From positions 62,001 to 126,000 of the forward strand of contig CANNFB010000006.1 of NCBI GenBank assembly GCA_947503785.1: a stretch of 64,000 nt of DNA. The letters run 5' to 3'. The first letter of the stretch is position 1; the number at the start of each line of letters is the position of its first letter. A program made the position numbers and the translations under genes. The notes under the pieces were generated by a model. It had not been told where the DNA came from and searched no databases. It worked only from the letters and a program-made list of their open reading frames with translations. This document shows positions 1,065 through 59,052 of the stretch, in pieces. The DNA is from an uncultured Campylobacterales bacterium. GTDB taxonomy: Bacteria > Campylobacterota > Campylobacteria > Campylobacterales > Arcobacteraceae.

Positions 1065-2831
1065 TTATTTGTGCAACTTAAACACGTGAACTGATCCACC
1101 TTGATTTAAATACTTAACAGTTTTTGCAACTTCACCACCCCATAAAGGAACAGCTCCACCCCAACCTGCAACGATTGCAATGTATTGTTCACCATCTTGT
1201 TTCCAAGTAATTGGAGAACCTACGATTCCAGTACCAACATTAAATTTCCAAACTATTTCACCAGTTTGATCATCAAATGCCATAAATTTACCTTCAGGAG
1301 TACCTGTGAATACAAGTCCACCACCAGTAGTTAAAACTCCACCCCATAATGGTGCATTGTTTTTATAAGTCCATTTAATCTCACCAGTTTTAGGATCAAC
1401 AGCTTTTAAAGCTCCGATATGATCTTCAAATGTTGGTTTAATAGTAAATCCAGCACCTAAGTAAGCAGCACCTTTTTTATATGCAACAGGCTTATTCCAA
1501 ATATCCATTCCCCACTCATTTGCAGGAACATAAAATAATCCTGTATCTTGTGAAAATGCCATTGGATTCCAGTTTTTACCACCTAAGAAAGATGGAGTTG
1601 CATAGACAGTTTTACCTTGTTTTTCACCAACTGGTTTTCCAGGTCTATTATCTTCATTTACAATTGGACGACCGTCTTTATCCATACCACTTGCCCAAGT
1701 AACATTTTCTACAAAAGGTACTGATCTAATATACTTTCCAGTAACTCTATCTAATACATAGAAGAACCCATTTTTATCGGCAGTAGCTCCAGCTTTTACC
1801 ATTTTTCCATTTTTGTCTTTATATTCAAAAGCTACAAATTCAGAAATACCATCATAATCCCAACCATCATTTGGAGTTGTTTGGAAATGCCAAACAATTT
1901 TTCCAGTATCTGGATTAATTGCTACTCTTGAAGCTGAATAAAGGTTATCACCTGGTCTATCATGTGAATTCCAAGGAGAAGGATTTCCTGTTGGAACATA
2001 AATTAAATCTGCATCGGGATCATAAGTAACACCATTCCAAGGAGCAGCACCACCATGTTTCCATAAATCACCCGGCCATGTAGCGTTTGTTTGCCCTGTA
2101 ATTCCATTATCTTTACCGTTTAAAGTACCCATATGACCTTCAACCATTGGTCTAGTCCATACTAGTTCACCTGTTAATGGGTTTCTTGCATCTAATTGTC
2201 CTACAACACCAAACTCACCACCAGAATTTCCAGTAATTAATAAACCTTTAACAATTAAAGGAGCTGCTGTATAAGAATAACCTTCTTTATAATTAGCAAT
2301 TTTCTTTTTCCATTTTACTTTTCCAGTTTTTCTATCAAGAGCAACTAGTTTTGCATCTAAAGTACCAAAAATAACAAGATTTTGGTATAATGCAGGACCT
2401 CTGTTTATTACATCACAACAAGGTAAAATAGCACCTGGAAGTCTGGCATCGTACTGCCATATCTCATCTCCAGTTGCTATATCAATAGCATACATTCTAG
2501 AATAAGAAGCTGTTACATACATAACTCCATCTTTAACTAAAGGTTGAGCTTCTTGCCCTCTTTGTTTTTCACCACCAAATGAAAAATTCCATACTGGAAC
2601 TAAATCTTTAATAGTCTTTTTATTAATCTGATCTAAAGATGAATATCTTTGACCTTTTTGACCTAAACCATACGTTACAACATCTTCAACAGTTTTAGCA
2701 TCATTAGCAATATCCGCATCAGTTACAGGCGCAAAACCAGCACTTGCAGATAACATTGTTACAGCACTTGCACTTAATAGTGTAGACAGTGTAACTTTAG
2801 CTACATTATTCAGAAATTTATTCTTTCCCAT
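1065..2831 (-). CDS. PQQ-dependent methanol/ethanol-family alcohol dehydrogenase (quinoprotein), lanthanide-type active site
   Basis: Translation has PQQ beta-propeller repeats, adjacent Cys pair [32 protein letters not shown]. Start at MGKNKF (2831) preferred over the track start 2915 because of RBS AAAGGAGAG and signal peptide. Confidence 0.93.
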
Positions 2832-2879
2832 TCCTCTCTCCTTTAAGATTATCTTGGCAACTTTTCGTTGTCTAGTTGA

Positions 2880-58156: not shown

Positions 58157-58546
58157 ATGAAAAATATATTTATACTGATAGCTTTACTAGCACTTATCTT
58201 AACAAACTCAAATGCTTACTCAACACAAATAAAAAATGCACATGCAATTGGTATCTTTCATGAAAATGGAAACGGTGAAAATATTCAGCATGTAAGAAAA
58301 ACAAAAGATGATTATAATGGTATATGCTTTTCAAAAATAGTAGTATTTGGAAAATTAAATAACATCAAACCAGAAGTAAAAATAGGCAACTCCAAAGGTA
58401 GTTTCATAAAAGCGATATCTATTTATAATAAAAATAAAATAAAAATTGCCCAAGAGATGACCTATAAACATTATAACGTTACAAAAGGCTATATTGAAGT
58501 AAGAGTTGCTAATAAATTATATGATTCAAAAGTCTTCGTAAAATAA
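58157..58546 (+). CDS. Hypothetical exported protein
   Basis: Signal peptide ORF of 129 aa. Confidence 0.55.
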   Translation: MKNIFILIALLALILTNSNAYSTQIKNAHAIGIFHENGNGENIQHVRKTKDDYNGICFSKIVVFGKLNNIKPEVKIGNSKGSFIKAISIYNKNKIKIAQEMTYKHYNVTKGYIEVRVANKLYDSKVFVK

Positions 58547-58554
58547 AAGAAATC

Positions 58555-58596
58555 TTGATTTATATCATTAACTTAATTTTTCATTCCTTGTATACT
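58555..58596 (+). promoter_or_regulatory. Crp/Fnr-like box TTGAT-TTAT-ATCAT plus -10 TATACT driving sRNA candidate 1
   Basis: Box 58555-58568; -10 at 58591-58596; centre at -41.5. Confidence 0.55.
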
Positions 58597-58602
58597 TACA
58601 CC

Positions 58603-58690
58603 ATAACAAGAAGCTTTATCTTTCCCCTCCTTTTAAAATAAAAGTCAAATATAAGATTTTTCATGATAAAGCTTCTTTTATACTTTCTTT
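58603..58690 (+). ncRNA. Candidate sRNA 1: 13-bp stem closing a loop with CCCCUCC
   Basis: AAGAAGCTTTATC (58608-58620) / GATAAAGCTTCTT (58665-58677), T-rich tail, -10 box upstream. Confidence 0.6.
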
Positions 58691-58775
58691 AAAATAATCT
58701 CAAACTTGTCAATTTAACTAGTAATTTATAGTGAAAATTCCATTAATTTACAAATTTTAAAAATATTTTACAACG

Positions 58776-58807
58776 TAGCATTAAAATAGCATTTTTTATG
58801 ATATACT
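58776..58807 (+). promoter_or_regulatory. sRNA candidate 2 promoter: TAGCAT-N5-TAGCAT-N9-TATACT
   Basis: Direct sequence read; 11-bp repeat pitch. Confidence 0.5.
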
Positions 58808-58813
58808 TTCAGC

Positions 58814-58895
58814 AATAGAAGTTTTATCTATTATCTCTCCTTAGTAAAAGAATTACGTAGCTGTAAAATTTTTTTCAGGATAAGACTTCTTTTAA
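58814..58895 (+). ncRNA. Candidate sRNA 2, paralogous to candidate 1
   Basis: AGAAGTTTTATC (58817-58828) / GATAAGACTTCT (58879-58890), loop with CUCUCCUU. Confidence 0.6.
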
Positions 58896-59000
58896 TTACT
58901 CATTGTTGTAAAAAATCAAAATTTTTATAATGTTAAAATAATTTTTATTTTTGAATATATTTGAATGTTTTTTATATAAATAAAATTAGAGTGTGCGAAC

Positions 59001-59040
59001 AAAAAAAAAGGATTAGTTAAATAACTAATCCTTTTTTTTT
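59001..59040. terminator. Bidirectional terminator
   Basis: A9-GGATTAGTTA-AA-TAACTAATCC-T9. Confidence 0.85.
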
Positions 59041-59052
59041 AGTCAATATTTT

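Follow-up and report, generated by a model that had tools for sequence, protein, structure and literature searches.

The window analysed here, a stretch of 64,000 nt from a Poseidonibacter genome (Arcobacteraceae), carries two tandem elements on its plus strand, each with a C/U-rich loop, a 12-bp stem and a TATACT hexamer. These elements, hereafter copy 1 and copy 2, had been placed correctly by a first-pass annotation, including boxes, stems and loops. Genes read as nap, a PAS protein and a 129-aa secreted protein lie on their 5' side, and the 3' side is occupied by genes of the opposite strand, one for a DnaJ-like protein followed by seryl-tRNA synthetase (serS). No same-strand gene follows the pair for about 2 kb, the next plus-strand ORF of at least 80 aa being located about 1.6 kb away inside serS, which makes an mRNA leader unlikely. 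The neighbouring genes vary from genome to genome. The secreted protein (58157-58543, plus strand) is conserved, has no Pfam match and adjoins the locus in several genera. A perfect inverted repeat between A and T runs (59001-59048), situated between copy 2 and the DnaJ-like gene and kept in relatives, is likely a bidirectional terminator. Genes resembling the nor, nir (cytochrome cd1) and nap denitrification genes, as read from sequence, extend over 27049-57663 (plus strand). The features of the pair are as follows:

58555-58568 (centre 58561.5), plus strand: FNR/CRP-type box TTGATTTATATCAT of copy 1, about -41.5 from the predicted start
58591-58596, plus strand: -10 hexamer TATACT of copy 1, predicted start near 58603
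about 58603-58685, plus strand: copy 1 sRNA gene with stem, CCCCTCC loop and T-rich 3' end (predicted ends)
58609-58620 and 58665-58676, plus strand: copy 1 stem arms AGAAGCTTTATC and GATAAAGCTTCT
58624-58630, plus strand: copy 1 loop CCCCTCC
58777-58793, plus strand: direct repeat TAGCATTAAAATAGCAT of copy 2, 11-bp period
58802-58807, plus strand: -10 hexamer TATACT of copy 2, predicted start near 58814
about 58814-58896, plus strand: copy 2 sRNA gene (predicted ends)
58817-58828 and 58879-58890, plus strand: copy 2 stem arms AGAAGTTTTATC and GATAAGACTTCT
58834-58845, plus strand: copy 2 loop with putative anti-Shine-Dalgarno seed TCTCTCCTTAGT

The overall shape of each RNA is a single long stem closing one large loop, with predicted folding energies of -17.7 kcal/mol for copy 1 (z -5.5; 0/200 shuffles as good) and -15.0 kcal/mol for copy 2 (z -2.1; 4/200 as good). 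The first-pass annotation had argued for a selected RNA structure from two changes between the copies, C-G to U-A and U-A to U-G. Both changes are real, but a comparison of just two paralogues says little about covariation, for which the orthologues supply the evidence. Across 32 distinct copy 2 sequences, 99.0% of stem cells are paired, 5 of the 12 pairs are changed on both sides and the covariation score is matched by none of 500 shuffles, while sliding the partner along the alignment lets pairing drop to 50-60%. This alignment was fitted to the covariance model; a MAFFT alignment of 18 copy 2 sequences, independent of the model, gives 98.1% pairing with 3 pairs changed on both sides. The stem of the five copy 1 orthologues is 100% paired and contains 2 compensatory pairs. 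Selection on the structure is thus borne out by folds that beat shuffled sequences and by covarying orthologue stems. About 44 of the 384 stem cells in the copy 2 alignment are G-U on the plus strand; their minus-strand counterparts, A-C, could not pair, which identifies the plus strand as the RNA. The copy 2 loop UCUCUCCUUAGU is invariant in all 18 aligned sequences and almost invariant overall, a single copy 2 orthologue in A3 departing from it. At the 3' end, the large-loop stem is followed by 4-7 U, a tract that is poor in some species. A simple scan does not recognise this arrangement as a terminator, and we infer that it works as an unusual one.

A covariance model of copy 2 (R1) detected copy 2 in 43 of 107 Arcobacteraceae genomes from four genera, i.e. 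in 10/10 Poseidonibacter, nearly all members of genus g10 and a single genome in each of two more genera. Genus g10 is mostly Aliarcobacter, the named matches being Aliarcobacter and Arcobacter cryaerophilus, caeni, vandammei and vitoriensis. Copy 1 is intact in only five of the ten Poseidonibacter genomes, and the copies are found as one locus per genome. A DNA search of 100 relatives recovered both copies in four other Poseidonibacter genomes and, in further genomes, only copy 2. Although no copy 1 sequence was in its training set, the copy 2 model also detects copy 1 in its five genomes (E 3e-6 to 7e-5), and the alignment of the two copies scores far above shuffled sequences (69 against a mean of 30, sd 6; 0/1000 as high), so the copies are paralogues. 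A copy 1 model is strong only in the five genomes that bear it. The loop and promoter repeat of copy 2 are kept across genera where the flanks diverge. We conclude that copy 2 is the ancestral element and copy 1 a recent duplicate inside Poseidonibacter. One genome (G007, L008 1430-1475) retains only the 3' half of copy 1, the 5' half having apparently been lost by a deletion that fused the remainder to the end of the neighbouring secreted-protein gene. Judged from sequence, both elements are structured, conserved sRNA genes on the plus strand that would be transcribed from their own promoters.

Three points unseen by the first-pass annotation are the relative age of the copies, their possible targets and the different predicted promoter elements that they carry. 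The TTGATTTATATCAT box lies 46.5 nt before the stem in 5/5 copy 1 genomes (in one with a single base change), and the pattern TTGATN4ATCAT has no second occurrence in the window. A distance of about -41.5 is the class II position of FNR/CRP activators, and copy 1 is probably under a regulator of this family, given its predicted start. FNR-like sites are only weakly enriched genome-wide (215 vs 160), and an FNR regulon is not claimed from them. Copy 2 is preceded by TAGCATTAAAATAGCAT, a probable OmpR/PhoB-type response-regulator site whose 11-bp spacing resembles sites of that family. This repeat has 46 near-exact sites in seven genomes vs 1 for a reversed-pattern control, and 62 vs 14 in the own genome when up to 3 mismatches are allowed. 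It adjoins genes for pta-ackA, acetate permease, lactate permease, hydrogenase, a sugar-binding protein and glpD, names that were read from sequence and in part tested by HMM. Genera that lack the sRNA carry the repeat as well, at pta and TRAP-transporter-like genes, which suggests that the regulon predates the sRNA. Throughout the Arcobacteraceae, the direct repeat TAGCATTAAARTAGCA (58777-58793; L046-L061, L234-L263, L013-L024) is found upstream of organic-acid, sugar and hydrogen genes and probably marks an uncharacterised response-regulator regulon; no paper naming it was found in the open literature searched. The distance from repeat to stem in copy 2 (L007-L012, L032-L044) measures roughly 29 nt in most of Poseidonibacter, whereas elsewhere it is roughly 41-44 nt; the two classes are close to one helical turn apart.

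The CCUCC loop had been proposed as a decoy of ribosome-binding sites (RBS) or as a seed for target prediction. Targets were sought by pattern, with gene starts picked by simple rules. The complement of the copy 2 loop is ACTAAGGAGAGAT, and the soxA start of the own genome (CTAAGGAGAGATCATG; SoxA by TIGR04484) offers a 12-nt perfect complement to this loop. The shorter CTAAGGAGAGA precedes a start in 42/107 genomes when the sRNA's own matches are included. Without these self-matches, CTAAGGAGAGA-ATG is present in 29/43 genomes with the sRNA vs 11/64 without (Fisher p 1.8e-7, relatedness ignored), whereas plain TAAGGAGA-ATG is not enriched in the former over the latter. Among sRNA-bearing genomes, the match recurs at soxA (nine genomes, three genera), a YbfB-like MFS transporter (six genomes), a 2-methylcitrate synthase-like (prpC-like) gene (four genomes, two genera), ackA (four genomes), a cytochrome c gene (three genomes), an alanine symporter and a sugar-binding protein (each two genomes, two genera) and a hexapeptide protein (two genomes); matches in genomes without the sRNA showed no recurrence between genomes. 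The proposed seed is supported, with soxA, ackA, prpC-like and transporter RBSs as recurrent matches and complementary RBSs enriched where the sRNA is present, but the decoy gives way to base-pairing with target RBSs.

Complementarity at 80 soxA start regions averages 9.5 nt in 37 genomes with the sRNA vs 7.3 nt in 43 without, reaching 12-13 nt in the former against about 7 nt otherwise. Genus means are 8.6-12 in four sRNA-bearing genera vs 6-9 in eleven others (p 0.004), although the genomes are related and kinship is not fully controlled in these target statistics, which makes the p-values optimistic and overstates independence. In g10, soxA complementarity is often only 7-9 nt. The own genome, G018 and G126 have no extended match at ackA, so this gene would be a target in part of the clade only. 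A perfect-match search for copy 1 targets found none at an RBS. A separate observation in the own genome (C1, L079 about 1340-1425) is that tenA, with the RBS AAAGGAGAGAT, is preceded by an apparent TPP riboswitch (THI-box). One further candidate is located in the window itself:

2832-2843, minus strand: candidate target RBS AAGGAGAGAGGA, upstream of a PQQ alcohol dehydrogenase gene (1071-2831, minus strand)

This site, whose gene was identified by TIGR03075 (HMM), has predicted duplex energies of -15.5 kcal/mol with copy 1 and -14.4 kcal/mol with copy 2, the best score for each copy among the window ORFs scored, and in G002 a PQQ-dehydrogenase-like protein starts after ACTAAGGAGAGAT. Overall, predicted complementarity at target RBSs tracks the presence of the sRNA, and the functions of the candidate targets suggest a link to alternative electron donors and carbon sources.

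Other explanations of the pair have to be weighed against trans-acting sRNAs. A stem followed by U residues could attenuate, and the elements might thus be an mRNA leader or a cis-acting attenuator of a downstream gene. This is very improbable because the DnaJ-like and serS genes downstream sit on the other strand, which is the ground on which we rejected it; moreover, the next plus-strand ORF is far off and the neighbours change between genomes. We give equally little credence to transcription of the minus strand, where GGA-containing loops would form CsrA-binding sponge RNAs. The loop complements AAGGAGAGAU and AAAAGGAGGGGA do resemble CsrA sites, and CsrA is present in related Campylobacter (PMC4892619). 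However, the plus strand is the one with the -10 boxes and U-rich ends, its G-U pairs turn into mismatches on the other strand, and target complementarity follows the plus-strand RNA; the sponge was rejected on the boxes, pairs and complementarity. The chance that the elements are a neutral repeat or a functionless mobile-element remnant is close to negligible. Their tandem arrangement and the degraded copy 1 in G007 could be read in this way, but the single locus per genome, the compensatory stem changes and a loop that is near-invariant across genera led us to discard it, and the promoter repeat is near-invariant as well.

The remaining alternative accepts the sRNAs as real and attributes the extended RBS matches to a clade-specific style of Shine-Dalgarno sequence, with the main targets or partner elsewhere, e.g. 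a protein. The loop mimics the anti-Shine-Dalgarno of 16S rRNA, hence any strong Shine-Dalgarno sequence pairs with it, and such sequences are common to related genomes. We nevertheless regard this as unlikely, given that it is the CTAAGGAGAGA extension and not the plain motif that is commoner in sRNA-bearing genomes, and that separate genera show the extended match at genes of the same functions.

We thus favour, with good though not full confidence, two paralogous trans-acting sRNAs that pair with RBSs and repress the use of alternative electron donors and carbon sources. Each RNA of about 80 nt would hold its C/U-rich anti-Shine-Dalgarno sequence open in the large loop by means of the single long stem, and pairing of this loop with the RBS of target mRNAs would block translation start. 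Targets may comprise soxA (thiosulfate oxidation), acetate kinase, 2-methylcitrate synthase, PQQ alcohol dehydrogenase and transporters for sugar, alanine and other substrates. Transcription of copy 2 is probably controlled by a response regulator with TAGCAT direct repeats as its binding site, a putative site that acetate, lactate, dicarboxylate, sugar and hydrogenase genes also have. Its duplicate is probably under an FNR/CRP-family regulator, by which oxygen or nitrogen-oxide status could feed the same type of control. A broader scenario, which we put forward tentatively and hold to be somewhat doubtful, is that the conserved sRNA acts as a carbon/electron-donor catabolite regulator in a response-regulator feed-forward loop, that the duplicate was rewired to an FNR-type oxygen/nitrogen-oxide signal, and that the two sibling RNAs, each with its own loop, thereby combine two global inputs on targets that they partly share. 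The pair also shows an sRNA duplicate soon after it gained a different promoter, a stage that is seldom seen.

As the first-pass annotation had stated, the elements cannot be assigned to a known family; an Rfam search of both at two thresholds gave no family at its cut-off and only weak, chance-level matches. Listeria LhrC (RF00616), likewise multicopy sRNAs with UC-rich loops, is such a match (18.5 bits vs a cut-off of 110, E 3.6). No Arcobacter sRNA papers were found in the open literature searched, and none for the group turned up in Rfam. As far as could be checked, the pair represents a genuine sRNA family that had not been listed before and whose functional type is familiar; it arrives with structure, phylogenetic range, promoter elements and concrete candidate targets and is therefore immediately testable.

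Enterobacterial Spot 42 and FnrS are globally regulated, Hfq-dependent sRNAs that repress secondary metabolism, and FNR controls FnrS and may likewise control copy 1; however, their sequences and folds differ and the Arcobacteraceae pair has no Rfam match. Helicobacter RepG shares the phylum and a C/U-rich loop that acts on mRNA leaders, but its target is a G-repeat in the tlpB leader. Campylobacter sRNAs (PMC8295292) also belong to this phylum. The pair appears to work most like the Neisseria siblings NmsRA/NmsRB, a comparison of function in which homology was checked by Rfam only. These tandem siblings carry UC-rich anti-Shine-Dalgarno sequences that pair at the Shine-Dalgarno sequence and repress central-metabolism mRNAs, including prpC and TCA-cycle genes; they have three stem-loops, with anti-Shine-Dalgarno sequences in linker and loop, and are under RelA control (PMC5362039). 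The tandem arrangement, the conserved anti-Shine-Dalgarno complementary to target Shine-Dalgarno sequences and a prpC-like target are in common, which agrees with the first-pass reading as structured sibling sRNAs with anti-Shine-Dalgarno loops, a reading that structure, conservation, paralogy and RBS complementarity fit. In contrast, the Arcobacteraceae RNAs have a single long closing stem instead of three stem-loops with a linker anti-Shine-Dalgarno, belong to another phylum and use other promoters, and the repression observed in Neisseria is one we infer here. In view of the differences in fold, phylum and promoters, we do not count them among the NmsR RNAs. The Neisseria parallel, including the methylcitrate synthase target, suggests more than one origin for anti-Shine-Dalgarno sRNAs that serve metabolic switching.
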